From Zygnema cylindricum (lineage: Eukaryota; Streptophyta; Zygnematophyceae; Zygnematales; Zygnemataceae): 64,000 nucleotides of DNA. The notes below the pieces were generated by a model, which saw only the letters and a list, made by a program, of their open reading frames with translations, was not told the DNA's origin and made no database searches. Position 1 is the stretch's first letter; the number at the start of each line of letters is the position of its first letter. Position numbers and translations under genes: made by a program. The stretch is from contig JBBHKE010002469.1 in assembly GCA_037447655.1 (NCBI GenBank), positions 339,820 to 403,819 of the forward strand, written 5' to 3'. This document shows positions 1 to 43,870 of the stretch, piece by piece.

Positions 1-791
1 AATCTCGACGTTTCATTCAAAGCCATTTGACTGAGGCATATGGCCTCAAATTTACTTTCGAGCAGGCTGCAGAATGCGCAGTACGGTATGAAATGTAGAC
101 CAACTCGTGGGACGCTCACGAGCGACCTAAGTCTTCTCCCAATGCAAACCCGAATCCTAATCCTAATCCACGCAAACCATGGCCTAATCCGAGACCTCCA
201 AGGGCTCCGGCCATGGGAACATTACCAACAAACCCTGGTGTTCGTATATGTTTTCGATGTGGTAACACTGGTCACGACGCACGCAGCTGTCCGGATAAGA
301 CCGCCACATGTACTCATTGTAATCAAACGGGTCATTATGTACATCGATGTCACATTAAAAATCCCGATTTCAGTTATCAAAATCAAATCAAAAACGGCGG
401 TATACCTGCTCGCTCGGCAAATTTGGTCACTCCACCAAAAAGGGTAGAGAAAGACAACCCTCCAAAAATCAGCAGGAGGGACCGAGAGAAAGCCGAGATG
501 CAGGCTACCGTAGCGGCTATGATGAAGGAGCAGTTTGCCGCGCTTATGGCGCAGGTCAAACCGCAATTAACCGGAATGGCCCGAACTGTGGTCCATATGC
601 CCTCTTTTGCTGGGCGATCTCTTCGGGAGTCCACTGTTCAACAGCGAGCGGCTCAATTTAAAGGGACTCCTGATCACAATCGCGAGTCAAAATCCATTAA
701 TACACAAATTCCATTATCATTTGCCAAAGAACCTCGCTCACCTATTCCAGAAACAGCCTCAAGCATCACCGCTGAGGCATTAACTATTTAG
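1..791 (+). pseudogene. Gypsy G1 gag C-terminal half with two CCHC zinc knuckles
   Basis: Nucleocapsid portion of Gag, which packages element RNA into virus-like particles. The open frame around 213-791 continues upstream through a proline/asparagine-rich linker and holds two adjacent CX2CX4HX4C knuckles: CFRCGNTGHDARSC and CTHCNQTGHYVHRC (about 246-350). The tail is basic and glutamine-rich, ending at a TAG at 789. The 1-212 part translates to a segment matching residues near the C-terminus of the G2 gag (same FIQS..LT..YGLKFTF pattern), with a TAG in the linker before the Pro-rich stretch. The first ATG at 213 is internal, not a true start; the real gag start lies upstream of the window. 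Confidence 0.85.
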
Positions 792-983
792 AGAGGAGTA
801 TACAAGACACATATAAGGTCAAAGAATATTTGTCCATCCTGTCCACCATGCTTCCCAAGTTGGATAGCAACGAAAAAACTATAGATCTAACTCCTTCAGC
901 TGTTGCGTTACAAGCATTACAGAACTATCGTAATGCTCTCTCTCTTCAAACTATTACTTCTTAAGAGCGGTCTAGCCTCACTC

Positions 984-1471
984 GTCACATCAGTTTTCTA
1001 GAAAACAAATTGGGCATCTTTACGGTTAATGGGTTTGCTCCGGCACTTCCTCTTATGGATACAGGCGCAAAGCCAATTATCCTCGGTTCTGATTTTGCCA
1101 TCAAAAAAGGTCTTACAGCAGATAAGTTAGAACCCACTACCACACGTCTATTGACTTCCGCAGGTACCACAGAGCCAGTCCTTTGTATTACGATTGAACC
1201 AATCTGTTTTCAATTTCAGAGTCAGTCAGCAACGGATTTCGCAGAAATTTATGCTCATGCCTTGGTCACCAAGTGTAGTGACTATGAATGCTTGTCGGTC
1301 AAGACGTTATTTTTCGAGTTGGGGGGGGGGTTGATATGCATGATCACACATTTTCGTACAGGCCGAACAACTTTCCGGAACGTAAAATTTGCTTACCCCT
1401 TATCTCAGCGCGGCAACCCATGCCTACTACGCCCCATTCGGCGCTGATCTTGCCAGCCTATGCCGCAGTTG
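984..1471 (+). pseudogene. Gypsy G1 aspartic protease and linker to the methyltransferase
   Basis: Retroviral-type aspartic protease that would cleave the polyprotein. The active-site motif LMDTGAKPIILGS lies near 1043-1090, matching LMDTGAKLVILGS in the minus-strand relative at about 41.1 kb. A frame change near 1310, beside a run of ten G, moves the continuation into another frame (1288-1476), which reads GQDVIF then FSYRP then LISARQPMPT, the same linker that precedes the methyltransferase in the relative. The frame then ends at about 1471, where a reverse-oriented copia LTR begins. Everything from here to methyltransferase motif X is missing in this copy. Confidence 0.8.
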
Positions 1472-2655
1472 GATAGTGCCGACTCCAAGTTGATATAAAC
1501 CCGAATGACTGACCCCTTGATAATCAGAACCCAAATATAGATTCACCCCTGTGAAATAACACTTTCTGTGTGGTCAGTTCCACCACAGAATGCAAAGTTA
1601 GAATATGAGATTTGGACACATTCACCCACTTTGATTTCCCTTAGAAATACCGCCACCCTGGTAGACAAAAACTCTGACCGACTACACCCCTGTGTAGCCT
1701 GGACCCCCGTGAGTCCGCAGCAAAAAGATTCACTGAAAATGGTGGCAGCAAAAAGAATCACTGAAAATGGTGATGTAAATTGATAGTTATGGCAGGCCAA
1801 AGTTTGCCATTTTTACAAGATGCTCTCTAGGAGAGGCGACTGCCTAGTGAAAATATTCTAAGTCCTATTCTCACTCTAAGACCCTATCTACTGACATACG
1901 CCACCAATCACTTTACTGTACCGTACAGATAAGTACAAGTGCCGGTGTACTTTTTGTACGACAATCGTACGATATGGCTGAAATGTCGACACATGTCTTG
2001 TATCTATTTGTTCCCGTAATCTTCGGTGGCGCCGCAATCCAATGTTGACGTGCCACGTGTCATCTTATGTGGCGATAACCGTAAACCGCCAAAAGTACAT
2101 ATCCCGTGATCGCGGCGCCTATAGCGGCCGTCCGATCAAATCCGGCTACATTTCTAGCCGTTGAAAATAGACGCGCGGTATTTGTTTCGCGGTCGAACTA
2201 AGTGCGCGGTATCCGTTTCAATAAAGAAATCCGTACTTCGTACTATCTATAACTGTATTTATGCAATACGTATATATTTCCAGTTAAATGAACTAGTCTA
2301 CGTGTAACTATTTAGATATTTATCAAACCACATACGTTGTAACACTAGCTCTAGTCTAAACGGCTAAGGTCACAGGCAAAGGGCAGATTAATGGACAGTA
2401 GGTACCAAGATCAATTCCTGGGTCCGTCACGGTAGGTACCAGGATCAATTCCTGGGTCCGTCAAGTACCTTTTGGTAAGTCTTACTAATTTACCCCCTGT
2501 CTTCTCTAGAGAGCATAGACAGCCATGGCTCAAGCTCCCTATCCAGCCTTCAGTGACTACAACAAGTGTGGGGGTTTGGATAGGGGCGTTAGAGGCAGAC
2601 TGCCTTTGCCTTTTTCTATCCTATTACAGACCTAGAAAATACACAAATATCAACA
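1472..2655 (-). repeat. Copia family A LTR (solo, truncated), reverse-oriented inside G1
   Basis: The reverse complement matches the LTRs at 35129-36429 and 38308-39608 over most of their length. It ends at 2655 with the LTR start (TGTTGATATTTG read on the minus strand). At the other side the match stops near 1472, so about the last 65 bases of the LTR are lost. It retains the region before the transcribed part (AGTTATGGCAGGCCAAAG near 1784) and the TTAGGACTTAGA-like motif (about 1855-1866). The hairpin-forming segment is tandemly duplicated here (2398-2463). The element's internal part is absent, as in a solo LTR formed by LTR-LTR recombination. Confidence 0.85.
2398..2463. repeat. 34-bp tandem duplication inside the solo copia LTR
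   Basis: Two copies of a unit beginning GTAGGTACCA and ending CCTGGGTCCGTCA start at 2398 and 2432 (period 34). The unit is the reverse complement of the hairpin segment present once in each LTR of the intact element (35321-35359 and 38500-38538). Only this copy is duplicated. Confidence 0.85.
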
Positions 2656-3118
2656 CGAGAGGCAACGCTGCACCTTACTTGGTCGTGTCATGGATCCTCA
2701 ATAACTGTCATTTGTCTTAGGCATGGGGTTCGCCGCTGGTCGATATGCACAGAACCATCCGTCTCAATCAGCTGTTGGGGGGCATACACCATTCAAACAC
2801 ACAGATTCCAAGTCCTCACCTTCTCTTCGGGGTACAACTTTTCAGCTTGCTCTTTTTCCTTTTCCCGCTAAGTTTGACACAGATCACACTATTTATGATT
2901 TTTTGGAACCTAGTCACATGAGTTGGTCTCCCCCAGTATACACAGCCGCTAGATCTCAGGTACCGGTACGGGCATCACCACACTGGACAGCTGCATTTCC
3001 GTCTAGAATTGGGAATCACGTTGTACATTGTTTGCATCAACTTCCTGTCGAGTATGAGTTGGGTCACTCCTTGATAGCAGATGAACAGCTAGAACAAAAA
3101 CTGAACACGAACTGTTAG
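2656..3118 (+). pseudogene. G1 methyltransferase motif X remnant and linker to RT
   Basis: Immediately after the copia LTR the frame reads ERQRCTLLGRVMDPQ, a stop, then LSFVLGMGFAAGRYAQNH. The RQR..LLGR pattern followed by a hydrophobic helix resembles motif X at the C-terminus of C5 cytosine methyltransferases of the DNMT3/DRM type. It is what would follow the point where the relative at 39.6 kb is cut. The rest (2723-3118) is an unrecognised linker (PFKHTD, HMSWSPPVYTAARS, CLHQLPVEYELGHSL) leading into RT. Assignment of motif X rests on pattern recognition across two broken copies. Confidence 0.6.
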
Positions 3119-4500: not shown

Positions 4501-5344
4501 ATGGTGTGCGACAGGATTTTGATGACCGATCAGTTGCCTCCTTATCAGCTAGAGCACATCTGATTTACAGTTTTGCAGCACCTACAAGCCACAAAACTCA
4601 ACACGATCCATGGCGGGACAGTGCTTTAATTCATTTCTTATCAACACAGTCTTTCCGACGGGCACCCTACCAAGGTAAGATGAGCGTGCTCGTAAGAGAG
4701 CCCAAAGTTACCTATGGATGGGGGGCTCACTTATTCGTCTTCTCTCGGATGGAAGTCACCGGCATGTTCCACGGCCGACGGAACGACTATCACTTATCAA
4801 CCAAATTCATACTGACCTTGGACACTATGGCACCAAACGGACTTTGAGTTTGGTACACGCACGGTATTGTTGGTCCGGCATGCAAGCTGATGTGGCGGCT
4901 GTGTTGCAGGAATACAGCACATGTGACCGGCTACGAACTTCATTTTCTAACCGACAGACCTCCCTTCAGCCCTTGCCTATTCGGGGTCTCTTTTATAAGT
5001 GGTCGTGTGACTTGGCCGGTCCCTTTCCAATCTCGCAAAGGGGCAAACAGTACATTATGATTATGATCAAAAATTTCAGCAAATGGGTGGAAGTTGTGGC
5101 CCACTTGCAAAAAACAGCCAAACTCACCACTGCAGCTTTTAAAGAGCATGTGCTTCTCCTATACGGAGCCCCCGCAGAAGTACTTACCGACCAAGGAACC
5201 GAGTTCCGCGGCAAATTTCGGGAGATGCTAGACGAGGTGTTAATTGATCACCGGCGGACGAGTCGGGACCATCCTCAAGCAGACGGTTTGGTAGAGAGAG
5301 CTGTACAAACCTTTAAGCGTGCTTTGCATAAACATTGCTTATAA
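4500..5344 (+). pseudogene. Gypsy G1 integrase (HHCC and DDE core)
   Basis: Integrase inserts the cDNA into the genome. The N-terminal zinc-binding part is visible (LGHYGTKRT ... C..C as EYSTCDRL), followed by the catalytic core: first Asp in WSCDLAGPFP, second in VLTDQGTEFRGKF, Glu in DGLVERAVQTFKRAL. A frame change near 4720-4850 separates the first half (4392-4847) from the core (4718-5344). The core ends at a TAA at 5342, but the downstream ORF is in the same frame, so the C-terminal domain and PHD finger belong to the same polyprotein. Confidence 0.88.
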
Positions 5345-6079
5345 AAATAGATTACGGTGTGGGATGAATCATTGGGATATATTGTCATGGGTTATCGCAT
5401 GCCTGTACAGGCTAGTCTGGCAAATTTCAGCCCCTATTTTGTGTTGTTTGGTGGAAAACCACTACTAGGTAGGAATGTACAGAAAGCCGCGAGCTTACCT
5501 CTACCTTTTATGTCGGATTCTCTGTTTTTAGAAGAACTGACAAACCGAGCGTTGCTTTTCGCTAGAGAAATGCCCATGGCTTTTGAAAACTTGCAGATTG
5601 CCCAACATCGCGACTCCTTACGGTTTGCAACAACTCGCAATGGCAGTTACCGGCAACAACAAAAACCCTTTCGAGTGGGGGATTACGTTTATTTGCGGCG
5701 GCAAACTTTTGATACACTCGACACTGATGTTTCAGCTCACATCTTGAGGATAACAAAAATCGACCCGAATGGATTACTAAGCCTACAAGGGGCCGACACG
5801 CGAACTTTGCGGGAGCATTCAAAGAATTGTGCCCCCTGCTATCTACCCGATCTTTCCCACAGCATGGACCCTTGGCGGATGCCGATTACTGAGGCCACAG
5901 AGTGCCAGTTTTGTCGGCGATCTGACGGAGAAACAACAATGCTCCTTTGTGACTATTGCAATCTGGGATTCCATATGGAGTGTTTGGTTCCACCTCTGCA
6001 CACTATCCCGGCTGGACAGTGGTTTTGCCACGGGTGTCGCGACCTACCGGCTGTCCTTACCAGCTCCCCCGCAGGCTAA
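5345..6079 (+). CDS. Integrase C-terminal domain fused to a PHD finger (gypsy G1 pol end)
   Basis: An open 240-residue segment in frame with the integrase core. Residues about 1-60 complete the core fold (NFSPYFVLFGGKP). Residues about 110-160 contain the SH3-like C-terminal domain (FRVGDYVYLRRQ). Residues 183-227 (5903-6037) form a complete C4HC3 PHD finger: CQFC, CDYC, GFHMEC and WFCHGC with the aromatic before the last pair. PHD fingers read histone H3 tails. A chromodomain is the commoner reader at this position in gypsy elements, so a PHD here could steer integration to a particular chromatin state; that role is inference. The segment ends at TAA 6077, just before the polypurine tract. 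Confidence 0.88.
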
Positions 6080-6082
6080 GGA

Positions 6083-6096
6083 GCTGGGGGGGGGAA
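6083..6096 (+). other. Polypurine tract of gypsy G1
   Basis: A purine block with a run of nine G follows the last pol codon by a few bases and marks the plus-strand primer site and the left edge of the 3' LTR. The context GCAGGCTAAGGAGCTGG recurs, inverted, at about 25140-25170 in a deleted relative. Confidence 0.65.
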
Positions 6097-7094
6097 TTCC
6101 ATCCTTACTTACCTGATCTTGCTTTGTCTTTTTGTTTCCTTGCTATGTCCATGTGTTTGGAATAATTTGTTTTTCCGGGCAGATTTATTTATTGTTTCTT
6201 GCGTTATATATGCTTTGAACTCCTATTATGGTCACAAATACTGTACATATGTAATACTCACTCATTTTCTGGTGTCTATCAGCGACCCACACTGGATGTG
6301 ATGCATGCCAATCACGGTTGTACTGCCATGCACGACATTTCGAACAAAACGAAAGTCTTTTGAGAGAAATAGTGTGGCGAACAAAAGATACCGAAAATAG
6401 AGTGACGAAGGAATGTTACGAAATTCCATTTTTATTTTCGGTTGTAGTTTGGAAAGCGCGTGTCATGTGCAAATCTTAAGATTTTTCGTTGGTTTTCCAT
6501 CATGACACGTAGCGTAATCGTCCAACGTTTTTTTTTGTATCTCCCAACCCACCTCCTCGAGGTGGGTTGACAGTTTCAGAGAAAAATGAAGCGAACTCTT
6601 CGCACATGAACATTCGATGGCCAGTATTACCTCCAAGACCTTCGGACAGTATTGGCAAGATACTCTATAATTTTGTTTTTTGTATAAAAACAAAATAGGC
6701 GGTACGATTTAGTACGGAGAGCCGCGGATTTTTGTAAACTTCCCCACTTTTCGCCTGATGGAACGTTACCCTAATAGATTAAAACAAACAACACAACACT
6801 AACAAACAAAACCATAGGTGACAGTCTACAAAGGGAACAAACCCATAGTAACAGTCTTACCCACAACCCGAACATTCTAAGGTCCCAAACCACGAGGGAT
6901 ATTGCCTCGTATTGGTAAAGCTTTAGACAACCCCATTTCAATACAGTAGTACAGTCATCTTATAGTCAACTTTAAAGGGGGGTCAGTTGCCCTGAAATCT
7001 CGGACGAAGTTGGTCGGTCCAGGTACGGTCCTCTAGTTCTTGCATGGCGGGCGGACCAAAGTCGCCGTCGGATTTATGGAAATAACTAAACAAG
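6097..7094 (+). repeat. Probable 3' LTR of G1 and flank; no gene
   Basis: No protein homology seen. The first several hundred bases should be the G1 3' LTR, but no second LTR copy lies in the window, so its right edge cannot be placed. It includes a 10-bp-stem hairpin at 6545-6569. From about 6770 onward the sequence is AT-rich and non-coding. Confidence 0.4.
6545..6569. other. Perfect hairpin, 10-bp stem, 5-base loop
   Basis: CAACCCACCT and AGGTGGGTTG flank the loop CCTCG. It lies in the presumed 3' LTR of G1 and follows a T-run. Confidence 0.7.
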
Positions 7095-23448: not shown

Positions 23449-24600
23449 TCATTTTTCCTCTTCGTCATCTTCGGTCAAAGCATCATCGTCATTACAAAAT
23501 TTACAAAATAACGCGTCTCTCGCCGTGCTCCTCCCACCTCGAGAAGATGATGTTACATCGTTTTTAGCATCTGGCATCCGAAATTGCCTCCACCCCACAG
23601 GTAGTGGCTCTCTACTGAGAATGATAAAGTTGTGTAAAACACAACATGCCATGGCATCAGTTGGAACCATTTCCTCCTTAACTGGTATGCCCCTCATTAT
23701 TTCAAACCGCCCTTTCAAAATGCCAAACGCCATTTCTATACGAACCCGCCCAATTGATAAAGCTTTATCAAAAGCATTTTTCCTTGCATCTCCACTATTT
23801 CTTGCTATATACCCTTTGATCAAAACATTGGATAGTGGATACGCAACATCCCAAATGATCACGGGTCGAAATGTAGTGCCACAAATTTCCTTAACCGGCT
23901 CTCTTAGAATTTGCCAATTTGTAGACGAGTGTAGATTGGCGAGGCTTGGTAAATGGTGGCGTCGTGGGTCGAGCCCGATCGATCACAAAAAACATCCCAA
24001 AATAGAAGACGGTGATCGCAAATTGCTTGAAAGGTTACACTCACTCAAATGCGTTTTCTACGGGTCGCCTTGAAAAAAAAATGTGCGTCCTATCGATTAC
24101 ACCTCCAATTTGTGATATTCTGGTTAACTTCTTGAAACCATTGATGATTTCTTATAACTCTCGTCCATGCGGTCTTTGAATAAACGTGGTATTAAGAAGC
24201 ATCGAACAAATGTCTTCAGTGTAATAGGTAATTGTTGAAGTCCCTATGCAAAAAAAATCTGATACGCCATTAAAGGCGTGATGTGAGCCAAACGGAGAAG
24301 CACCACTGCACATGCTTTGTTGATATGTATGGCATCTTGATAACTAGTGTGTCGTGTTCGAATGAATAGTGTTAACATCAACATATACTTTTCAAAAGTG
24401 CGTAACCTCATACGAAAATGCCTTTTCCATTGTCTGTCACAATTTTCATTTCCGACATTTAACCATATAGTGATACAAATGTCCTCCCAAAAGCTTGTAG
24501 ATCTAGGAAAAATCCACCATCTTCTTCCCTTTGAGCGTGATTGTATGCGAATGTTAATAAAATTTCCCCACCGTTTTTGCAAAAGTACAAATTATAATAT
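23449..24600 (-). pseudogene. PIF/Harbinger DDE transposase, decayed
   Basis: Read on the minus strand. The N-terminal segment (24582-24244: WKRHFRMRLRTFEKYMLML, INKACAVVLLRLAH) resembles the region upstream of the catalytic domain in HARBI1-like transposases. It is followed by GVIDRTHI (first Asp region, about 24080), a shifted segment with a THDATIY-like motif (about 23960), and the C-terminal ORF 23862-23449 with IIWDVAYPLSNVLIKGYIAR and the conserved Glu block IEMAFGILKGRFEIMRG, ending in an acidic tail. Several frame changes between 24244 and 23862 disable it. Harbinger elements need a second Myb-like protein, not found nearby. Terminal repeats were not located. Confidence 0.82.
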
Positions 24601-25603: not shown

Positions 25604-25759
25604 GCCGTTGCTGAATGAGCCATGATTGGAAATGGTTTCCGTGCCAAAATAAGTGGAAGGCAAATCTTTTGTTCAGGAAAGTTATTCGGTCAGTAAGAGA
25701 ATGTTTGGTCTTGATTCTACGGGCCTAAAAGAGGCTAACGATCAAGTAGTCTCGGAAGG

Positions 25760-26600
25760 ATAATAGAGATTATCCCAATCGGTGAGCATAAGAAAGATAA
25801 AACCAAAGGATGAACAGATAGCGGAATCGTTCTATACGAGATGCTTGAAATGCTTAGCCACACCACTCACTTGTGAATCAGCCACTCAGTCTTTAACGAG
25901 GCCTCGACGGCCAAATCTTTCCGTATTACCGAAACCTTCTTCCATACAAACAAGTGGGCAAGGCCGAAAGGCCATATCTATAAAGGCAAAAAAATTGTTA
26001 TCCAAGCACACACAGGTGCAAATTTACAGCAACACAATTAGAAGACAACTATTCAAGGCCACCAACGGCCAGATTTAAGCAATAACGTCCACTTCAAGCA
26101 ATCATAGAAAATCCGAGAAAGCGGAAGGCCACTCACGGCCAGATTACAAGCAAAGAAAGTTAGGAAATGTAAGTGCTCAATACAATTAGGTTTAATGAGA
26201 CCGAATCCACGCACAAACCCTCTAAACGGTCAACCAGCTATCTTTACGCGTTCCTGCGCCCACAAGGCATTGTAATACTTACAAAACACCTTTAATAATC
26301 AAGTGATTATCAAAGGTGAGCCGCAGCTGGTCGTTGCAGTTGGGGCTTTGCTGAGCGCCAATATGTGAATCCGCTCCACAATCCGCTCCTGAAATTTCCT
26401 CTAAAGGGGTCTCCTCCAAGTGGGTCTCCTCCAAGTGTCCTCCAGACCGCGCGTGCCCTCACCTTGTGCATGTCCACACCCAAAGGAAGAGGAAAAGAAA
26501 TACCGGAACAACGATAAGAAAGGCAAATAAACTCGGAAGTGAGTTAGGATTAAGGAAAAGGGCTGCCCAAACCCTAGGTTTTCGGCAAACCTTAGGCCTG
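25760..26600 (-). repeat. Gypsy G3 leader/LTR segment
   Basis: Colinear with 43131-43800. Shared blocks include GTGGGCAAGGCC, CAAGGCCACCAACGGCCAGAT, AAGGCCACTCACGGCCAGAT and TGCTCAATACAATTAGGT. The exact LTR edges cannot be set because neither copy has both ends. Confidence 0.7.
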
Positions 26601-33247: not shown

Positions 33248-33845
33248 GGAGCGGGAGAACGGATACTGAAACCTCATCCCCAAAATTATCAACAAGTTCT
33301 CGAACAATTTTCGGGAAGCAAAGGATGTAGTGAGTTTTTCTACAACTTTTATCCCTTTACCTTATCAATCCACCTCTCGATTGCTACTATTTTTGTGCGA
33401 TTTTCAATCATTTACAATGTATTATTCTCTCATTTTTCCGTTTACATTAATGTATATTTCCTTTCTAAAATTTGTTGTTGCTTACATATTATTGCGATTT
33501 ATTTGAGTGTAATCCGTTGCACATGACATGAGATTAAATGTAGTCCTTTACTCTTGTAATCCTTTTCCTCATGGGTGTTATTTATTGGTTGTTATACGTA
33601 CTATTTTACATGTTTTTATATATTTTTATGATCAATATTTAGTTAGGACAAAACGGTCTGCGAGATTGTGATGGAAACAGGGGGTGGAAAAGGCAGTGTC
33701 CTTCATTTTTGCGGAATCAGCTAACCGGCGACGACATTATGTTGTCACCGTATAAATGAAATTATTGTACCATCAGCGATGACTTATTCTCGTTGCTTGG
33801 ATGTTGGACTCTTGGACGATGTAAAACGGGTGAAGTTTGGCGTTT

Positions 33846-34105
33846 CGTCGCCGCAATGTTGGAACGTGATATGGCACACTTCAGTGGACGCTCAACGCGG
33901 ATTTAGTGATGTCGGATAAATATTGTACTACTCAAATATACATGAGGACAAAATTTGTTTTTTCGTCGTCGCAATGTTGGAACGTGTGATAGCAAGACTT
34001 CAATGGACATTCGACGCGGATTTATTGTCAAAAGATAATTGTTGGGCTTCTCGATTATACTTGACGGCGAAATGTGCTTATTCGTCGCCGCAATATCGAA
34101 ACGTC
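33846..34105. repeat. Imperfect tandem repeat, period 117-118 bp, about 2.3 units
   Basis: The block TCGTCGCCGCAATGTTGGAACGTG and its variants start near 33846, 33963 and 34082, each followed in the first two units by ACTTCA(A/G)TGGAC and CAACGCGGATTTA / CGACGCGGATTTA. No coding function recognised. Confidence 0.75.
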
Positions 34106-34275
34106 CGTGAACGTTGGTCGAACAAGGGTTTGTCGTCAAAAACATTTTTACAACTTGTAAATATTTAAAAAACAAATCTATCGCTCAAATGGAGTAATTT
34201 TTTGAGACTGTCTTTGTTGTATTTACCATTAATGTGCAATATTTTGCAATCGCGTTCCGATTTCTTTGCACTTGA

Positions 34276-35128
34276 GTGAAAAGCAACTCCATGTATCCCA
34301 GCAATCGTCCGACTAAACGACCACGTAGCTATGTACTGCAAAACAATCGATTTCCTCCCATAAACATCAGTCAACTCGAAAATCGTCGGCCAACTGAAGA
34401 GAGGGACAACATATTAACCAACATAGAGAGAATGGAGGAGTCACAAATAGAGGTAGAAATACATGAAAGAGGGGTGGCGGAAGAGTTAGTGAGGGTAGGG
34501 AATGAAAGTGAAAGTGAAACAAATGATAAGCTGGTAAAGGACCAAAAAGGGGCATCGAATGAGGAAGGAAGTGGAAAAAAGGAGGCTGACAGAGAAAGGT
34601 TGATAGAGGAAGTGGGTGGAGAAGATGGGGATTTAACGAACGTGTTAGGAAAGGAAAAAGGGGAATCAAATGAGGAGGAACTTGAAAAAGGATAAGAAAA
34701 AGAGGTCGTAGGAGAAAGGATGATAGAGGGAGAGGGTGTAAATGAAGTTGTTTTCCCGGGTGAGGTAGGAGAGAAAAAAGGGGAATCGGGTGAGGAGGGA
34801 AGTGATAATGGGTTAGAAAAAGATGTCGTAGGAGAAAAGCAGATAGAGGGAGAGGGTGTAAAGGAAGGTGTTTTCCCGAGTGTGGTAGGAGAGGAAAAAG
34901 ACGAACCGGATGAGGATGAAGATGATAAAAGATTGGAAAAAGAGGTAGGAGAACAAAGGGTCATAGAGGAACAGAGTGAAAAAAATTGTGTTTTAGCGGG
35001 TGAGGTAGGAGAGGAAAAAAGGGAATCCAGTGAGGATGGAAGTGATAATGGGTTAGAAAAGGAGGTTGGAGGAGAAATGGTGATAAAGGAAAAGGGTATA
35101 AAGAAGGGTGTGGTAGCGCAAGAGGAGG
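34276..35128 (+). pseudogene. Acidic tandem-repeat protein fragment, cut by copia A
   Basis: Opens with a basic segment (SNRPTKRPRSYVLQNNRFPP), then turns into Glu/Gly-rich repeats of about 41 residues. Four diverged units are visible: each begins around LEKEVVGE or LEKDVVGE, continues IEGEGV..V..GEVGEEK, and ends E(D/E)GSDNG. A TAA at about 34693 breaks the frame after the first part. The last unit runs straight into the copia LTR at 35129. I do not recognise the family; the repeats recall low-complexity acidic proteins. It may be host-derived or part of an unrecognised element, and it is the only non-transposon-like coding sequence with clear internal structure here. Confidence 0.5.
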
Positions 35129-35320
35129 TGTTGATATTTGAGTATTTTCTAGGTCTATTTTAGGATAGGAAAATAGAAGAGGCATTCTGCCTCTAACTTC
35201 TTCTCCAAGCCCCCACACTTGTGGTAGTCACTGGAGGCTGAAAAGGGAGCTAGAGCCATGGCTCCCTAAGCTGTCTAGAGAGATAGGTAGTAGAATCTGA
35301 GTAGATTTACCAAAAGGAAT

Positions 35321-35359
35321 GACGGACCCAGGATTTGATCTTGGTACCTGCCGTCCGTC
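35321..35359. other. Two-stem hairpin in copia A 5' LTR
   Basis: GACGGAC pairs with GTCCGTC, enclosing an inner stem CCAGGAT/ATCTTGG with a 3-base loop. The same structure in the 3' LTR (38500-38538) has a perfect inner stem (CCAGGAT/ATCCTGG), and it is duplicated in the solo LTR at 2398-2463. Confidence 0.75.
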
Positions 35360-36054
35360 ATAGTAGTCGTTAGCTTTGTTCGTTTAGTCTAGGACTTGTG
35401 CTAAGGTATATAGGGTTTGAAATCTATGTAAACACATACACGTAGGTTTTGCCATTTAACTAGATTACGGTCTATAGGACATAGAAACACTTGTACTATT
35501 AGTACCGGACGAAACAAAAAGTACGGACACTTGTTTCGACGGTTCTTATTTAATACCTATATCAATCGGACGGCCGTGGTTAGCGCCGGTCTCGCGGAAA
35601 GGACAATTTGGCGGTTTGCGGACTCCCCCACTCCGGATGACACGTGGCAATAACGAACGGGATTACAGAATTTCCGGGACAGCAGAAAACAAATCCGGAA
35701 GTGAGAAATATCGCAAAATGGCGACATCGTACAATGTACGTACAGAAAGTAGTCCGGCACTTGTACTTTCTTGTACGGTACCATTTTTCTGACGCGGCAT
35801 GACTTGGCACCACGTGGAGAGATAAGATTTGGAGGCAGGAATTCCGGAGATTATAAGAGCGAATCCGCATAGGACATTTGTTGACTTTTTAGCCATGTCG
35901 TACGATGACCATACAAAAGGTACACCGGCGTCTGCACTTTTATGTACTATACAGTTATGCATTTGGTCCGTACCTTAGTACTAGAGGGTTTAAAGAGGGG
36001 TTTAGGACTTAGAATATTTCTGGTAGGTAGCTTCCTCTCCTAGAGAGCACCTTG

Positions 36055-36060
36055 TATAAA
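36055..36060 (+). promoter_or_regulatory. TATA box of copia A 5' LTR
   Basis: TATAAA in the context CTTGTATAAATGGC, the likely retrotransposon promoter. The 3' LTR has TATATAT at the same place (39234-39240). It lies 350 bp before the gag start, about 50 bp after the TTTAGGACTTAGA motif. Confidence 0.6.
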
Positions 36061-36409
36061 TGGCAAACTTTGGCCAGCCATAACTATCAATTCATCTGAC
36101 CAATTTCAGGGATTCTTCTTGCTGCGGACTCAAGGGAGTCCAAGCTACACATAGGTGTAGTCATTCAAAGTTGTTGCCTACCTGGGTGGTTGCATTTCTA
36201 AGGGAAAGTCAAAGTGGGTGAATGTGTCCAAATCTCATATACTAACTTTGCATTCTGTGATGGACCTGAGCACACAGAAAGTCTTATTTCCCAAGGGTGA
36301 AGCTAAAATGGTGTTCTGATTGTCAAGGGGTTAATCATTTGGGTTTATATCAAGTTGGAGTCAGCACTTCCTAGATTAGCTTCTTTTGATCTGCAAATTC
36401 TGTGTGGAA

Positions 36410-36970
36410 ATGGAGCCCATAGAATTTTAGGTTATGGGCCCACCATCTAGGGTGCCTATGTTTGATGGAACTGACTTCACTTATTGGGGGTTTACGATGG
36501 AGGGGTTGCTTTTCGAGAAGCACTTATGGGGAATTGTTTCAGGACAAGTGAGGTGTCCGCCACCGGGGTTTGGAGAAGCTCACTATGGAGAATCATCTGG
36601 AGCTGCCCAGAAAAACCAACCGGAGTTCAGATGCAACGGAAGGTGAAGAGAAAATCATTACGGTGGAAGGGGAAATAGGGGAGAAGGATAAAAGGACACC
36701 TATGGTGAGGGGAGCTAGGCTCTCGACTATGGTTCCACTTGTGGGGGTTAAAACTGAACCAAAAACTAAAGAAAATGATAGGAAAATTTGGGAATATAAA
36801 AACATTATAGCAAAACATCTCATACTTAGATATGTGTCGAAGTCCATAGCTATCACTCTTTTAAGTCTAACCAAGTTTTCGGAAATTTGGAAAACACAAA
36901 TTCAGATTTATAAGAGTGAGATTATACAGAGGCAGCAGTAAGTAAAATAAGAAATAGAGGCCTATGCTTA
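36410..36970 (+). pseudogene. Copia A gag N-terminal half, frameshifted
   Basis: Initiates in the LTR, passes a TAG at 36428, then reads VMGPPSRVPMFDGTDFTYWG, the copia Gag N-terminal block (compare MGLSSRIPIFNGQKYAYW in family E). A frame change near 36570 moves to 36570-36941, which holds DRKIWEYKNIIAKHLILRYV and KFSEIWKTQIQIYKSEIIQR, the middle helical part of copia Gag. Confidence 0.8.
36430..36445 (+). promoter_or_regulatory. Copia A primer-binding site, half-tRNA type
   Basis: GGTTATGGGCCCACCA starts immediately after the LTR. GGTTATGGGCCCAC is complementary to the initiator tRNA-Met anticodon arm (GUGGGCCCAUAACC). It is translated in the gag frame as V-M-G-P-P. Confidence 0.8.
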
Positions 36971-36983
36971 TAAAGGCGGTAGC

Positions 36984-38294
36984 ATGATAGAGTTTTGCAA
37001 TGATATTGCTGCATTATATGTTGAGCTTTCTAGTGCGGGATATGTAGAATATGAGGAGAGAAAGATTAATACACTAATCATGAAACTCCCAGATGAGTAC
37101 AAAGACATCATTTACCGTATGCAGGGAATGGATGTCTCCTCTTGGACTTGGAGCATCACCATGGGGATAATACTTGTGAGGGAAAGCACCTTGAAGCTTC
37201 GTAGGGGAAGTGACAGGGTGACTGCATTTACAGCTGGTGGTTATTGGCGGAACCGTGATGTGAGGAACGGCGGCGACAAGCGGAAGCGTGATGAGAGGAA
37301 GAAAGACAAAAGTAAACCTTATCGAAACTTTGGTGGAAAGAGAGGGAGAAGAAAAAAAAGGGGAGCTTTGGAAAAAGGGGTTTGTTTCTTTTGTAGAGAT
37401 CAGGGTCACCATATGGAGGAGTGTCCTCGTTTGGAAGAACTTAGAAGTTGGGGTGTGAATGAGGAGGAAGAAGGGGAAGAGGAGAAAGAGGATGAAGAAA
37501 TCTTGGAGCTTGTTCACATCTATAGAATAGAAAAGAGAGAAAAGTACACAGAAATTCCACGAAGGCAACAGTGTGCTTTTGGAGGTATAAGGGAAGTAAA
37601 GAGAGAGGAGGTTCTTGAGGTTGTCGAGGAGTGTAAAGTGTGTGACTTAGAAATGAGAAAGTCAGATCTAGGATCCATAAGTGAAAACGGGAAAAATAAA
37701 ATTAATGAGGATATTTTTATAGGTATTTTGGAATTAGAAAACTGGTCGGAAAGGGAGACTTCAACGGATTCCGAGGAAAGGGGAGAAGTGAAACTAGAAT
37801 GGGTTTTAAAGGATATGGGAGATGAGGAATATCTAATGAAAGGTTTAGGGGAGGAGAAATATTTATTGGGAATAAATTTAGAAAGTGAGAGTAAGGAAAG
37901 TTTAATTTTTGGGGGTAATGGGTTTGACATCACTAAAGGGAGTGATAGCATTTATAAAGGTGCGCTTGTAAAAGGGTTAGCATCTGGGTGCGTATTGCAG
38001 ATTGGAGATGGGGCTGGCTGTTTGAATTGCAAGAGGGAAATTGGATTTAGTGTGGATGGAAAAGAGATGAGGTGGATAAAATCTTGGCTTGGATTTATGA
38101 AAAGTGGGATGCTAAATAAAATGTGTGGTGTAATTATTATTCCGGTTTATCAAATGCTCTATTTAAAATACGAGAATATTTTCTTAAAGTTATATGAAAA
38201 GAAAAGGAAAAGGAAAAAGAAAAAGGGTGGAGAGGGTGTGTTTGTTTGTTTGTTTTTTTTTGGCTGTGTGGGAGTCGAAAAGAAAATAGACTAG
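36984..38294 (+). CDS. Copia A Gag C-terminal half with zinc knuckle and long acidic tail
   Basis: A 436-codon open segment. Residues 1-80 complete the copia Gag fold (MIEFCNDIAALYVELSSAGY, TLIMKLPDEYKDIIYRM). A basic stretch (about 95-130) precedes the CCHC knuckle CFFCRDQGHHMEEC at about residues 134-147, then come some 290 residues rich in Glu/Lys with no recognised domain, ending in a K/R-rich tail and a hydrophobic C-terminus. Protease and RT are absent although the tail is long enough to hint at diverged extra sequence. The same arrangement (knuckle, then charged tail) occurs in the gag-only family D. The frame ends 13 bases before the 3' LTR, so the polypurine tract abuts the stop. Confidence 0.8.
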   Translation: MIEFCNDIAALYVELSSAGYVEYEERKINTLIMKLPDEYKDIIYRMQGMDVSSWTWSITMGIILVRESTLKLRRGSDRVTAFTAGGYWRNRDVRNGGDKRKRDERKKDKSKPYRNFGGKRGRRKKRGALEKGVCFFCRDQGHHMEECPRLEELRSWGVNEEEEGEEEKEDEEILELVHIYRIEKREKYTEIPRRQQCAFGGIREVKREEVLEVVEECKVCDLEMRKSDLGSISENGKNKINEDIFIGILELENWSERETSTDSEERGEVKLEWVLKDMGDEEYLMKGLGEEKYLLGINLESESKESLIFGGNGFDITKGSDSIYKGALVKGLASGCVLQIGDGAGCLNCKREIGFSVDGKEMRWIKSWLGFMKSGMLNKMCGVIIIPVYQMLYLKYENIFLKLYEKKRKRKKKKGGEGVFVCLFFFGCVGVEKKID

Positions 38295-38307
38295 AAAATA
38301 AGGGGAG

Positions 38308-39608
38308 TGTTGATATTTGAGTATTTTCTAGGTCTATTTTAGGATAGGAAAATAGCAGAGGCAGTCTGCCTCTAACTTCTTCTCCAAGCCCCCACAGTTG
38401 TTGTAGTCAATGGAGGCTGAAGAGGGAGCTAGAGCCATGGCTGCCTAAGCTGTCTAGAGAGACAGGCAGTAGAATCTGAGTAGATTTACCAAAAGGAATG
38501 ACGGACCCAGGATTTGATCCTGGTACTTGCCGTCCGTCATAGTAGCCGTTAGCTTTGTCCGTTTAGTCTAGGACTTGTGCTAAGGTGAATACGGTTTGAT
38601 ATGTATTTAAACAAATACACGTAGGTTTTCCCATTTAACTAGATTATGGTCTATAGGCTATAGAAACAGTTGTACTATTAGTACCGGACGAAACAAATAG
38701 TACGGACATTTGTTTCTACGGTTCGTATTTAATACCTATATCAATCGGACAGCCGTGGTTAGCGCCGGTCTCGCGGAAAGGACAATTTGGCGGTTTTCGG
38801 ACTCCGCCACTCCGGATGACACGTGGCAACACCGTACGGGATTACGGAATTTCAGGAACGGCAAAAAACAAATCCGGAAGTGACAAATGTCGCACTATGG
38901 CGACATCGTACAATGTACGTACAGAAAGTACTCCGGCACTTGTACTTTCTTGTATGGTACCATTTTTCTGACGCGGCATGACCTCGCGCCAAGTGGAGAG
39001 ATAAGATTTGGAGGCAGGAATTCCGGAGATTATAAGAGCGAATCCGGATAAAACATGTGTTGACTTTTTAGCCGTGTCGTACGATGACCGTACAAAAGGT
39101 ACACCGACATCTGTACCTTTATGTACTATACAGTAATGCGATTGGTCCGTACCTCAGTAATAGAGGGTTTAGAGAGGGGTTTAGGACTTAGAATATTTTT
39201 GGTAGGTAGCTGCCTCTCCCAGAGAGCACCTTGTATATATGGCAACTTTGGCCAGCCATAACTATCAATTCAGTTGACCATTTTCAGTGATTCTTGTTGC
39301 TGCAGACTCAAGGGAGTCCACGCTACACAAAAGTGTAGTCGGTCAGAGTTTTTTCCTGCCTGGGTGGCTGTATTTCTAAGTGAAAGTCAAAGTGGGTGAA
39401 TGTGTCCAAATCTCATATTCTAACTTTGCATTCTGTGGTGGAACTGAGCACACAGAAAGCCTTATTTCACAGAGGTGAAGCTATAATGGGGTTCTGATTG
39501 TCAAGGGGTCAATCATTTGGGTTTATGTAAACTTGGAGTCTGCACTATCTAGATTAGCTTCCTTTGGACCTGCGAATTCAGTGTGGCAATGGAGCCCATA
39601 GAATTTCA
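38308..39608 (+). repeat. Copia A 3' LTR
   Basis: Pairs with 35129-36429 over the full 1301 bp. It has 13 GTAC tetramers between 38831 and 39154, TATATAT at 39234, and ends TAGAATTTCA at 39608, directly against the G2 methyltransferase frame. Confidence 0.92.
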
Positions 39609-40937
39609 TGTGAGACCATGGGCAGCCGTAGTGTTGGGAAGGAAATGCATAAGGTGTTCCCGTTCTGTGGCTGTAGGTTCATCTAGGCCGCCTGTGTGAA
39701 TATTTTTGAGCAGGCCGGGCCCATCACCTGAGAAAGTGTGAGAATGTGGATAAGACACTAGAGTTGGGAGAACTTTGAGTGGTTGGCTTGAGACGTTAAT
39801 GTTGTAATTCGGTGGAAGATCAGACTGCAGACAGGTTTGGACTTTGTAAAATGGAAGAAGTGTAGTCTGAATATCTGTAAAAGGAGGTTTGACAAACAGA
39901 TTTCCATCTTTAAGGCGTCCTATATCAATCAAGTTGTTCCATTTAGATCGAACCCGATGAGCTAACGACCCGTGACGAGCGGCATCAATGATAAGAGTAG
40001 GACCAATTAATGCTTCTATCCGCTTGTAATCAGCTAACACTGTAGGTCGAGGATCGTTATAGGCTCCCACGTTTTCCAGAATATATCCCAATGGGCGATC
40101 GAAATATTGCAAAAAATGCATGATACGAAGTATTTCAAATAATAATTTGGTGCGGGGATCAGCTAAGCCGAGAACTTTGCCTGCTCGTGACATTCCCTGA
40201 CACTCCCAATCAGCAAAGAGAAAATCGATTGGTTCAACATCGAGAAGGTGTTGGTTTCCTATCAAACGAATATCTTGAGGTAGTGCTGTATGCATGTGAG
40301 CAAAGGCCGATTTAGGGAAAAGATGTGGATATTGTCTGTGTAATAGATTACAGTGATGTGTTTGGGCTTTCCGAGATATAGGGTCAGTGTCAACTGAGTA
40401 GTAGTGCTTGATAGGACATTCGTTGTGAAGGCATGAGAGTAGAGAGGTACCTATGCCTGCGAATATGTCTAAAATGACTAGACCATCTTGATGAGGTTTT
40501 ACCTGAATTGGTTTCCAATTAATTGGAAAAAATCCGGAAGGATCTACAGAAATAAGAGGCAGAGGTGGAACCCTCGATAAAGGAATCTGAAGTGTGTGTT
40601 TGTAGATGTGATCGAACTCGTGAGAATCGATAATAAAACCTGGATTAACGAATAGTTCAGGAAAAGAAGGACTGTCGGGCAGAATTTCCTTTGCGGAAAG
40701 AGAATGGAAAATTTCAAATCCCACCGAATTACCGGAATAAGCAGGGACAGATTGGGCTGCGTGAGCCATAATAGGCATGGATTGGCGTGCTGAAATTAGA
40801 GGGGGACAAATTTTCTTTTCCGGATAATTGGTAGGACGGTAGGAAAAAGTCTGATCGTATATATCAACGCCGCCTCCTATTATGAAAATCACATCTTGCC
40901 CTACTAAACACTCGTAATCACTACATTTGGTGACCAA
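39606..40937 (-). CDS. C5 cytosine DNA methyltransferase domain in gypsy pol
   Basis: A 443-codon open segment. Residues 1-75 are the protease-to-methyltransferase linker also seen in G1 (KCSDYECL, FSYRP, LISARQ). From about 153 the C5-methyltransferase motifs follow in order: motif I DIFAGIG (157-163), which binds S-adenosylmethionine; motif II YYSVDTDP (179-186); motif IV FADWECQGMSRAG (241-253) with the catalytic Cys at 246; motif VI ENV (288-290); motif VIII HRVRSKW (327-333); and a motif IX-like EREHLMHF (425-432). The usual Pro before the catalytic Cys is Glu (ECQ instead of PCQ). Motif X is missing because the copia LTR starts at 39608; its likely remnant is in G1. The pattern is closest to DNMT3/DRM-type enzymes by eye. 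Likely role: DNA cytosine methylation by the element. Confidence 0.88.
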   Translation of the reverse strand: MVTKCSDYECLVGQDVIFIIGGGVDIYDQTFSYRPTNYPEKKICPPLISARQSMPIMAHAAQSVPAYSGNSVGFEIFHSLSAKEILPDSPSFPELFVNPGFIIDSHEFDHIYKHTLQIPLSRVPPLPLISVDPSGFFPINWKPIQVKPHQDGLVILDIFAGIGTSLLSCLHNECPIKHYYSVDTDPISRKAQTHHCNLLHRQYPHLFPKSAFAHMHTALPQDIRLIGNQHLLDVEPIDFLFADWECQGMSRAGKVLGLADPRTKLLFEILRIMHFLQYFDRPLGYILENVGAYNDPRPTVLADYKRIEALIGPTLIIDAARHGSLAHRVRSKWNNLIDIGRLKDGNLFVKPPFTDIQTTLLPFYKVQTCLQSDLPPNYNINVSSQPLKVLPTLVSYPHSHTFSGDGPGLLKNIHTGGLDEPTATEREHLMHFLPNTTAAHGLT

Positions 40938-41349
40938 TGCGTGTACACAAACATAAGCAAAATCTCATTCTTTACCATTTTGAAACCTAAAACAGAGTGG
41001 ATCATTTGTAATGCCCAAAACTGGTTCGGTTGTTCCCGCTAAGGTGAGTAAACGTGTGGAAGTGGACTGAAGTTTATCAGCTGTCAGACCTAGTTTCAGT
41101 GCAAAAGATGACCCCAAAATAACTAGTTTTGCACCGGTGTCCATAAGTGGTAACGACGGTATGACACCATTGACTGAAAATGCACCCTTCCCATTATCTA
41201 AAAAATTGATGTGTGGGTCAAGTGAACTGCGCTCGTCGGTAGAGATAGGCCTAACAGCATCAAGATTACGGTTCATTTGTAAAGCCTATAATGCTGCAAA
41301 TGGGATGGATGTCACCCTAGATTTTAGGTTGGGTAATCAGAAATCATAG
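40938..41349 (-). pseudogene. Gypsy G2 aspartic protease
   Basis: The frame 41276-40965 contains SLPLMDTGAKLVILGSSFAL with the D-T-G active site at about residue 46, then STRLLTLAGTTEPVLGI. It ends at TGA near 40962 and continues in the same frame into the methyltransferase segment. Confidence 0.85.
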
Positions 41350-42142
41350 TTGACAAAATGCATAATCTTTCCTTAACCCTATGGCTGTCCTGAATGGAGC
41401 GCTCAAGAATAGTGAGTGATTCCGTGGTGATGGTGGAAGTTGTTTCGGGCATATTGGTTGCGGTTTCTTTGGAAAATGATAATGGTAGACGTGTGCTAGA
41501 CTGTTTACCCTCGCGATTGTGATCAACTGTCCCTTTGTCAAACGTGGTTGTCCGCTTTTGAATGGTTGAATCTCGTAAAACTCGACTTGCTAGCGTGGGA
41601 AGGTGGACAACTGTACGAGCCATACCAGTTAGGTGAGTAGGCGGTTTCATTTGAGTCATAAGGGCTGCAAACTAGTCTTTGATCATAGCGGCCATCTGAG
41701 TTTGCATTTCCTCTCTCTCTTTTTCTCTCTGTGACACTTTAGGTGGAGAGTTTATTTCTGACTCTTTATCTGGTTGGATTACTTTGGCAGATCTAGCCGG
41801 TATGCCACCATTTCGAATCTGATTTTGATATGAAAACTCAGGGTTTTTGATGTGACAACGATACACAAAGTGGCCAGTCTATTTGCAGTGTGTACAGGTC
41901 GCAGATTTACCCGGACACATCCGAGCATCATGCCCGGTCTTGCCACATCGGAAACAAATCCGATTAGATGGTTGATTTGGTGGGGTTCCCATAGCTGGGA
42001 CCCTTGGTGGCGGATTATTTGGCCCCAAGTTACGAGGATTTGGTGAATTGAAAGGGTTAGGTTCTCTCTGAGGGGCTTTTGGTCGATCGTGAGCCTCCCA
42101 CCAACAATTCGTCATCTCGTATTCTACAGCGTATTGAGCTGC
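41324..42142 (-). pseudogene. Gypsy G2 gag C-terminal part with zinc knuckles
   Basis: 42115-41879 carries a Pro/Asn-rich linker and the first knuckle CFRCGKTGHDARMC, then CTHCK interrupted by a stop at the second knuckle (His/Cys half resumes as MYRC at 41866). The basic tails 41866-41672 and 41659-41324 match G1 (NPEFSYQNQIRNGG, RTVVHLPTLASRVLRDST). Confidence 0.85.
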
Positions 42143-43157
42143 CTAGTCAAATGTAAATTTGAGACCGTATGTTTGGGTAAGATAGCTTTGAATAAATTTC
42201 TTTGATTGGAAAGGAAACTGTCCAACAAACTTCTGGACAGCTTCAGCATCTGATATCAGATTGGGTAACGCTTCCCGCAAGGTCTCCATGCGGGCTCGTA
42301 AAGCGGGGGGCAGTTTCGCTCGGTTTACGCTCAAAATTCATTAATTCCTTAACTTGGTCAGGATTTTGCATGCGATACTCCTCTTGTATCAAATTAAACA
42401 TTATGGTGAGAGGGTCTCGTAACGGAATAGTCATCTCGGGTCGTGCTGGGACGGCGGCTCGGGCTGCAATGGCATATTGGTGGGGAACCTCCGCTACAGC
42501 TGGGTAAAGAACATTGCCAAGCGCATCCAAGACCTCGGGAATTGTAGCTTGATAAGGAATTTTTGCTTGACCTATTACCTCAGGCATACCAGCAAACTGT
42601 GGAGAATATTCGGTCATCGCAAGTATGCCATCATACTTGCGAGAATATAAGGTAAGGGCCGACCCGCGAAGATAGTGTCCGAGAAGGGAGAAAGCGACAC
42701 GCATGTCAAATCTATCTTGATAACGGAAAGCTAGATCTCGCATTTCAGTGTCGAATAGCATTCGAAAATGAGATAAACTCATGGTATCCTTCATTCCGGA
42801 AAAGCAGAATTGAAGTTTACCAAGAGTACCCTCCGATGTGGAGGCCATCAAAAGAGACGAGTTAGTCAAATTCAAAGCCTGAATCGGTGCTAACGGAGAC
42901 CAAAAAGAAATAAAATCTGAATCGGGTTCCCTTTCGTTATCAACCTCTTCCACAGATAGCGTGGAAAGAATGGATGACAAAGATGAGAGAGTGGTTAAAT
43001 CTGAACGAGTAGAAGACGCTCTAGATTCGATTAAAGGACTTAACGTCAAAGGAACCGAATTTGATAAATTCGATTGATCAAAATTTAATGAACGGAAAGT
43101 TCCACCACTACGTGTAGATCCGTATGAGTGGTCAAGATTCTCCCAATCGGTGGGCAT
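42143..43157 (-). CDS. Gypsy G2 gag N-terminal and capsid part
   Basis: A 304-codon open segment starting MPTDWENLDHSYG. Residues 1-100 are Ser/Thr/Leu-rich. Residues 120-280 form the likely capsid core (MSLSHFRMLFDTEMRDLAFR, SLLGHYLRGSALTLYSRKYD, PLTIMFNLIQEEYRMQNPDQ). A frame change near 42330 leads to 42334-42143 (MSVNRAKLPPALRARMETLR, AVQKFVGQFPFQSKKFIQSY). Start chosen because the homologous G3 copy is colinear up to the same ATG region. It precedes knuckles and protease, the normal gypsy gag position. Confidence 0.78.
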
Positions 43158-43870
43158 AAAAATGATTGAGATAACAAACTAATCCGCTAATGGATATGCC
43201 TTATACGAGGTGCAACAAATGCTAAACCATACCACATACGTAGGCAACAATCTCAAACAGTCTCTAACAAGGCAACGATGGCCAGATCTAGTCAAGAGGC
43301 TGCTTTTACCGAAACCTCTAGCCTGCAAACGAGTGGGCAAGGCCAAAGGGCCCGATCTATAAAGGCAAAAACTTGCTAAACAAGCACCCGGAGGTGCAGA
43401 TCTAAAGCTCCACAGGCAGAAAATAGTTCTATCCAAGGCCACCAACGGCCAGATCTAGCAATAAAATTCCACGCCAAACAGACAACAAGAAAAACACAAG
43501 GCCACTCACGGCCAGATAGCAAGCATGGAAAGCGTGGATAGTGCAAATGCTCAATACAATTAGGTCCAGGTGAACCCAATCCACTCACGTACCCTCTAAA
43601 CGATCAACAACTATATTGACACGCGCCTGCAAGGCATCGTGAACTTACAAACCACTTTTAGCGATCTGGTGATTGCCAAGGGTGAACTGCGGTTGTTCGC
43701 TCCAACCGGAGTTTTGCAGAGCTCCCAAAAACGAACCAGCTCCACTATCTCCACTCCAAATTGTCGAGCAAACACCACATCTCAATTACCACCCTAGTTA
43801 ATAGCTTGTTAGGGCACGCGTATCAGCACTATGCCACGCTCTGCCCGTCTATAAAGCAATGATAATTTTC
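43158..43870 (-). repeat. Gypsy G2 leader / LTR segment
   Basis: Colinear with 25760-26450. Repeated short motifs AAGGCCACCAACGGCCAGAT and AAGGCCACTCACGGCCAGAT occur in both copies. The position of the primer-binding site could not be decided. Short ORFs here follow the GC-rich composition and are not supported. Confidence 0.6.

Follow-up and report, generated by a model that had tools for sequence, protein, structure and literature searches.

The 64,000-nucleotide stretch of the Zygnema cylindricum genome analyzed here (contig JBBHKE010002469.1; hereafter the window) contains two copies, G1 and G2, both broken, of a retrotransposon family of the Ty3/gypsy type. Between its protease and its reverse transcriptase, this family bears a predicted Dnmt3-class C5 cytosine DNA methyltransferase. 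Taken as a whole, the family is probably best explained by a methyltransferase that is carried on Gag-Pol and methylates the element's complementary DNA (cDNA), together with a PHD finger on the integrase that biases insertion.

A methyltransferase between protease and reverse transcriptase

In G2, the putative methyltransferase lies in a long frame next to the protease:

39606..40964, minus strand: open frame of 452 amino acids, protease tail or linker plus C5-methyltransferase (open reading frame listing, PF00145 match, motifs)
about 39609..40517, minus strand: methyltransferase domain, Dnmt3-like, with motif IV WECQG and without motif X
40965..40967, minus strand: in-frame TGA separating the protease and methyltransferase frames
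40968..41250 (borders approximate), minus strand: aspartic protease (LPLMDTGAKLVILG), the frame holding DTGA

Direct reading recovers DIFAGIG, WECQG, LENVG, AHRVRSKW and LPTLVSYP (the family's motif IX) in this order, in agreement with the sequence-only reading, which had listed motifs I, IV, VI and VIII and part of IX and had placed the domain in frame with the protease (DTGA) apart from one TGA. That reading's start at 39606 also stands, whereas its end at 40937 does not, as the frame reaches 40964 and the domain proper spans about 39609-40517. The PF00145 hidden Markov model that it had proposed as a check matches the frame significantly (E 2.8e-8; its 34 bits exceed the cut-off of 22), over residues 227-301 only. 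Thus a significant PF00145 match, the motif IV cysteine, ENV and RxR, all hallmarks of C5-methyltransferases, are present, while the proline expected before the catalytic cysteine is replaced by glutamate. A chance open frame was ruled out by a shuffle control of 39606-40964, in which the longest of six frames averaged 95 codons and reached at most 200 (500 mononucleotide shuffles). What G2 lacks is the C-terminal ~30 residues (motif X) only, lost because the 3′ end of a copia-type long terminal repeat (LTR) falls exactly there; owing to this loss and the one stop, the predicted methyltransferase of this particular copy is dead. At the position of the TGA there is no stop in the frame of either G1 or L011, an unbroken copy elsewhere in the same genome.

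L011 is one natural, uninterrupted frame of 2395 codons (first methionine at codon 41) that runs from Gag through a CCHC zinc knuckle, protease, methyltransferase (WECQGMS), reverse transcriptase, RNase H and integrase to a PHD finger. It answers the proposal that intact family members be sought in the genome and, together with fusions in relatives, upholds the claim that a Ty3/gypsy element encodes the methyltransferase. BLAST comparison with the two copies in the window located its Gag and protease; methyltransferase, reverse transcriptase, RNase H, H2C2, rve and PHD exceed their Pfam cut-offs, and the CCHC knuckle and an overlapping zf-H2C2 model remain below theirs. The order protease, reverse transcriptase, RNase H, integrase, with H2C2 and rve, is that of Ty3/gypsy elements, and G1 also supports it. 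Within the L011 frame no chromodomain model matched at E 0.01, a PHD finger standing there instead, and no tyrosine-recombinase model matched, the integrase being of the rve kind. Pol-linked copies of the methyltransferase occur in many places rather than at this locus only.

The flanks of L011 consist of a 931-nt repeat A, 100% identical on both sides of the coding region (three overlapping pieces compared), and a repeat B of about 243 nt, 99.6% identical, that flanks the downstream A on both sides, giving the order A-coding-B-A-B (L011 8938-9200 with L052). A second copy, L016, has the same order, with a B match of 190 nt at 99.5% (read with L053 and L054), such that both copies with fetched flanks (2/2) combine this arrangement with a methyltransferase inside Pol. 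With the outer ends taken as the start of A and the end of B, L011 and L016 are bounded by 4-bp target duplications, TTGG and CCTT. At the inner junction, B and A are separated by two additional bases, GC, a spacer that resembles joined element ends.

A profile built from three sequences recovered 84 proteins from other records, 80 of which can be aligned to the domain seen in the window (many of them are fragmentary) and four of which (P0082-P0085) look like ordinary C5-methyltransferases. The named relatives come from Closterium sp. (P0018, P0038, P0066) and from Marchantia polymorpha (P0079, P0080), the latter two being degenerate methyltransferase remnants, one preceded by a protease-like linker. 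Protease-methyltransferase joins occur in P0018 and P0033 (protease matches below the Pfam cut-off), and the methyltransferase is followed by reverse transcriptase in P0051 (by Pfam), in P0053 (reverse transcriptase below cut-off) and, as tblastn against the G1 reverse transcriptase region shows, in P0009 and P0038. P0019 has another order, RNase H and then methyltransferase in one protein; therefore, the domain moved within Pol or was captured again in that lineage. No Klebsormidium name appears among the 84 matches, most of which bear no species name and which come from a search of proteins up to about 530 amino acids. As to a close prokaryotic or viral source, a few peptide patterns found no relative in the collections viral_contigs and genome_contigs.

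Could a host methyltransferase gene or pseudogene simply adjoin a retrotransposon by chance? Within the window alone, the stop between the methyltransferase and protease frames would fit such an arrangement, but the continuous frame of L011, the joins on either side of the domain in other copies and records, and the motif X that precedes reverse transcriptase in G1 reduce its probability to almost nothing. A neighbouring host gene in particular is already refuted by the L011 frame.

Glutamate or proline before the catalytic cysteine

The sequence-only reading had called the Glu-Cys of motif IV (ECQ) unusual. The glutamate is indeed there in G2, yet it is no oddity of this copy. A PF00145 search of the same genome (353 Mb, 2689 contigs) gave 123 scored matches among 782 candidates, some of them perhaps host genes, from which 45 distinct places were fetched: 10 with the search, 15 picked mostly because their open frames are long (five other stretches fetched with these overlapped the first ten) and 20 further from the list. 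The sample is biased to good copies and may hold duplicates (L037 and L038, for example, score alike); L001, L003, L005, L006 and L009 were merged as the same places as L024, L025, L023, L015 and L026, the loci before removal of repeats numbering 20 type A and 29 type B. Motif IV is readable in 44 of the 45 places (L007 gave no match covering it), and these fall into two unmixed types: type A, the window's own, with glutamate in 19/19 places, and type B, with proline in 25/25. In the wider family, the position before the catalytic cysteine holds glutamate in 18, proline in 27 and another residue in 2 of 47 readable rows; the cysteine itself is present in 47 of 48 rows, and Cys, the ENV glutamate and HRxR are near-invariant over both E and P members. 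The glutamate is thus invariant in type A and frequent across the family at large; judged from these sequences, ECQ is a trait of the subfamily, and decay of a single copy is ruled out as its origin. One residue does set G2 apart, the aspartate that precedes the tryptophan (ADWECQ), as opposed to glycine in open type A copies (FAGWECQ or FGGWECQ).

With motif IV masked, a tree of 65 rows places types A and B in separate, well-supported clades that lie far apart, and it groups G2 with L023 and L030. Changes between glutamate and proline require at least five steps in this tree, the fewest in two earlier trees being four. The root is weak, with one distant outgroup (P0083); the trees leave out those records (29 of 85) in which fewer than 160 positions are filled, and this tree and one of the earlier two also omit P0080, P0082, P0084 and P0085, which are long or distant.

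Selective constraint on the open methyltransferase domains was estimated by NG86 as the ratio of nonsynonymous to synonymous divergence (dN/dS), from pairs with dS between 0.03 and 1, which leaves out 81/102 type A and 65/120 type B pairs; L017, a type A copy, was excluded from the type B set. The median is 0.289 in type A (21/102 pairs, range 0.148-0.552, one above 0.5) and 0.242 in type B (55/120 pairs, range 0.079-0.772, four above 0.5), alongside 0.127 for reverse transcriptase (10 pairs), 0.251 for integrase (4) and 0.120 for the PHD finger (4). Given the non-independent pairs and the openness-biased copies, these ratios show constraint, not its exact strength. The protease values (11 pairs, median 0.367, range 0.06-1.22) were left unused, as some of the excised frames seem to be out of register. 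The methyltransferase-bearing Gag-Pol frame has recently been mobile and is under constraint.

It is conceivable, if unlikely, that what has been kept is a catalytically dead Dnmt3 fold, retained for binding DNA or nucleosomes or as a scaffold, with glutamate having replaced proline. The fixation of ECQ in 19/19 type A places, the altered DNMT3-style motif X and the inactivity in yeast of the methyltransferase of KnitGypsy-Dnmt3, a Klebsormidium nitens element (main text of de Mendoza et al. 2018, PMC5890265), are in line with such a relic. Against this, the cysteine, the ENV glutamate and HRxR stay near-invariant regardless of the preceding residue, E and P members are under similar constraint, and the proline appears dispensable: the accessible text of PMC5372726 describes Dnmt2 enzymes with PSCQ or PACQ, and since the PSCQ enzyme of Schizosaccharomyces pombe is active on tRNA, loss of the proline does not imply a dead enzyme. 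ECQ in a retrotransposon methyltransferase is not described in the titles, abstracts and passages covered of the open-access papers searched.

The two broken copies and their surroundings

The remaining parts of G2, and the LTR that interrupts it, are:

41870..41990 (approximate), minus strand: zinc knuckle of G2 (RICFRCGKTGHDARMCPGK...), read by eye and placed by the L011 alignment
42243..43178, minus strand: Gag open frame of G2, 311 amino acids, with a 53% match to the Gag part of L011
38308..39608, plus strand: LTR of copia type; its 3′ end truncates G2 immediately ahead of motif X

The Gag frame has no match in Pfam. The second copy, G1, occupies 1-6337 on the plus strand and is 66% identical to G2 over gag and protease:

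1..1476, plus strand: 5′ part of G1 (gag end, CCHC, protease, linker), 95% identical to L011
1472..2656, minus strand: copia-type LTR fragment in G1, the methyltransferase core being deleted beside it
2657..2743, plus strand: methyltransferase motif X remnant (ERQRCTLLGRVMDPQ, then a stop), identical to the sequence after the methyltransferase in L011
3098..4056, plus strand: reverse transcriptase region, with PF00078 in 3514-4056
4679..5344, plus strand: integrase, H2C2 zinc finger and rve core (PF17921, PF00665)
5903..6037, plus strand: PHD finger at the C-terminus of the integrase frame (PF00628, E 3.5e-11; 98% to the L011 PHD)
6095..6337 (start approximate), plus strand: B repeat, followed by flank

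Since motif X is kept and is followed by reverse transcriptase, integrase and PHD finger, G1 evidently once carried the putative methyltransferase as well. Its 3098-6337 portion is 91% identical to L011, and its protease falls below the Pfam cut-off (20.4 against 24.3 bits). The G1 and G2 proteases share 76 of 109 compared residues, with a dN of 0.26 by NG86 and a dS that is undefined (probably saturated), for which reason no ratio is claimed for this pair. No second A repeat was found downstream of the G1 B repeat (window 6337), and this end, B and then flank, is perhaps the product of recombination between B copies.

Relative to the methyltransferase gene, the LTR ends at 2656/2657 in G1 and 39608/39609 in G2 differ in position by no more than about 5 nt, and both LTRs are copia-type and of one family, with 78-83% identity. 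As this exceeds the 66% identity of G1 and G2 over gag and protease, two insertions at nearly one site seem likelier than one shared insertion. The window from about 33800 to 39608 seemingly consists of tandem copia-type gag-only elements with common LTRs, where GGTTATGGGCCCA stands after the first LTR, a sequence that we take to resemble the half-tRNA primer site of Drosophila copia. Elsewhere, a fragment at 25706-26390 is 70-73% identical to the leader of the methyltransferase elements, and an open frame at 23449-23982 (minus strand) is presumably a PIF/Harbinger-type transposase from its look by eye. Scanning the window for Rfam families and for tRNAs returned nothing.

Known systems, mechanism and meaning

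Among solved C5-methyltransferases, the G2 domain is nearest to DNMT3 by both sequence profile and fold, the catalytic domains of DNMT3A and DNMT3B being the closest match at about 22% identity; phage and giant-virus enzymes of a viral library gave weaker E-values than the DNMT3 chains. The 50 fold matches listed contain no DNMT2 entry; they also contain no DRM, DNMT1 or DNMT5 structure, but the absence of these three is given no weight. Unlike DNMT3A and DNMT3B, the Zygnema element has WECQG in place of SPCN, and its reader domain sits on the integrase instead of being fused to the methyltransferase.

A retrotransposon-borne Dnmt3-type methyltransferase is a kind already known from K. nitens, because KnitGypsy-Dnmt3 has the same repeat order and a methyltransferase in Pol. 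As described in the main text of PMC5890265, that element shares with ours the Ty3/gypsy domains, a Dnmt3-type domain within Pol, DIRS-like A-coding-B-A-B repeats and purifying selection on the methyltransferase; it apparently differs in that here the integrase ends in a PHD finger, ECQ marks type A, and L011 joins Gag and Pol in one frame. That main text, to which the comparison was confined, nowhere contains the word PHD, though the K. nitens element may still have ECQ, PCQ or an unnamed PHD. SymbioDIRS-Dnmt3 of Symbiodinium, from the same source, likewise has a Dnmt3 domain in Pol beside reverse transcriptase and A-coding-B-A-B repeats, but uses a tyrosine recombinase and has no DDE integrase, whereas our elements have an rve integrase and 4-bp target duplications; with DIRS elements in general, only the repeats are alike, as L011 has no tyrosine recombinase. 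Chromoviruses also place a chromatin reader on the integrase C-terminus, theirs being a chromodomain; a survey of plant LTR elements (PMC6317226) reports chromodomains, and its main text is without the word PHD. Ginger1-9_HM does have a gypsy-like integrase with a C-terminal PHD, yet Ginger1 elements are described as cut-and-paste DNA transposons, for which the available text of PMC2836005 mentions neither reverse transcriptase nor methyltransferase. According to the accessible part of PMC12344493, which refers to de Mendoza et al., retrotransposons contain some members of DNMT3. In the portions of the literature covered, we did not find in print an integrase PHD in the same polyprotein, a fixed Glu-Cys subfamily beside a Pro-Cys one, or the wider host range.

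A search with the G1 integrase tail recovered 34 proteins, including some from the liverwort Calypogeia fissa and the moss Sphagnum magellanicum; one of them, P0088 (integrase-PHD), and the methyltransferase P0060 both come from 20,893-base contigs of the European Nucleotide Archive (ENA), probably the same record. The predicted structure of the tail has a mean predicted local distance difference test (pLDDT) score of 65, its barrel and PHD blocks being confident and the remainder not. The closest solved PHD fingers are those of PHF12, KDM5/Lid, BAZ2B and WSTF, several of which bind unmodified H3K4. A PHD finger on a Ty3 integrase is not described in the covered titles, abstracts and passages of the open-access papers searched.

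From these features, the methyltransferase most likely travels in Gag-Pol and would methylate the element's own DNA around integration. It would be made and packaged as part of Gag-Pol, may be freed inside the particle by the element's own protease, and could then act on the double-stranded cDNA, methylating it either ahead of integration or immediately afterwards. The PHD finger, for its part, would read the histone H3 tail and bias where the integrase inserts. Several points weigh against this account. The substrate, packaging and timing of the methyltransferase are inferred. Motif X of L011 is GRVMD and differs from that of DNMT3, which is GRSWSVP, and the glutamate beside the catalytic cysteine could weaken or redirect catalysis. 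The copies behind the dN/dS ratios were selected in part because their open frames are long, and their pairs are not independent, the constraint on the PHD finger being drawn from four pairs. The type B PHD, at 17.5 and 21.5 bits, does not reach the Pfam cut-off of 24. Finally, the main text of PMC5890265 reports that the K. nitens methyltransferase gave no methylation in yeast, where human DNMT3B also failed, and its authors draw no conclusion from this result.

Alternatively, the substrate may be RNA (the genomic RNA or the tRNA primer) or single-stranded or hybrid cDNA rather than duplex DNA. The changed motif IV and the packaging of Pol with RNA are compatible with this, and the tRNA enzyme Dnmt2 of S. 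pombe also deviates from PCQ (PMC5372726, accessible text). However, profile and fold are nearer to DNMT3 than to DNMT2, with no DNMT2 among the matches listed, and the methylation of CG DNA by some other retrotransposon Dnmt3 domains (main text of PMC5890265) points to DNA, making such a substrate improbable. An enzyme directed chiefly at the DNA of the host or of rivals, whether to alter silencing or to defend against DNA viruses, is likewise a slim prospect. Such targets have been proposed for accessory methylases (accessible text of PMC6338049), and Symbiodinium, which has elements with DNMT domains, has a mostly CG-methylated genome; yet K. nitens carries such elements and has a methylome similar to that of land plants (both from PMC5890265), and the single-frame Gag-Pol fusion favours action in the particle.

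Does the PHD finger serve the same end as the methyltransferase? We entertain, as a tentative and rather doubtful extension of methylation in the particle, that the polyprotein unites a writer and a reader: the Glu-Cys methyltransferase would mark the cDNA and the integrase PHD would direct the methylated copy into inactive chromatin, so that the element silences itself on arrival. The PHD is most similar to the KDM5, BAZ2 and PHF21A type, whose members read unmodified H3K4. If true, such self-restraint may be what allows a genome of 353 Mb to harbour the element in perhaps hundreds of copies.

At the level of the family, the Marchantia remnants run counter to the view that land plants such as tracheophytes have no methylases encoded by transposons (stated in the accessible text of PMC6338049), at least for a liverwort. 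With a broader family that includes open copies, the idea of self-methylation becomes testable, and two sister families in one genome that differ beside the catalytic cysteine offer a natural comparison of that residue's role. A methyltransferase and a PHD finger in one Pol would connect the pre-marking of cDNA with the choice of insertion site.
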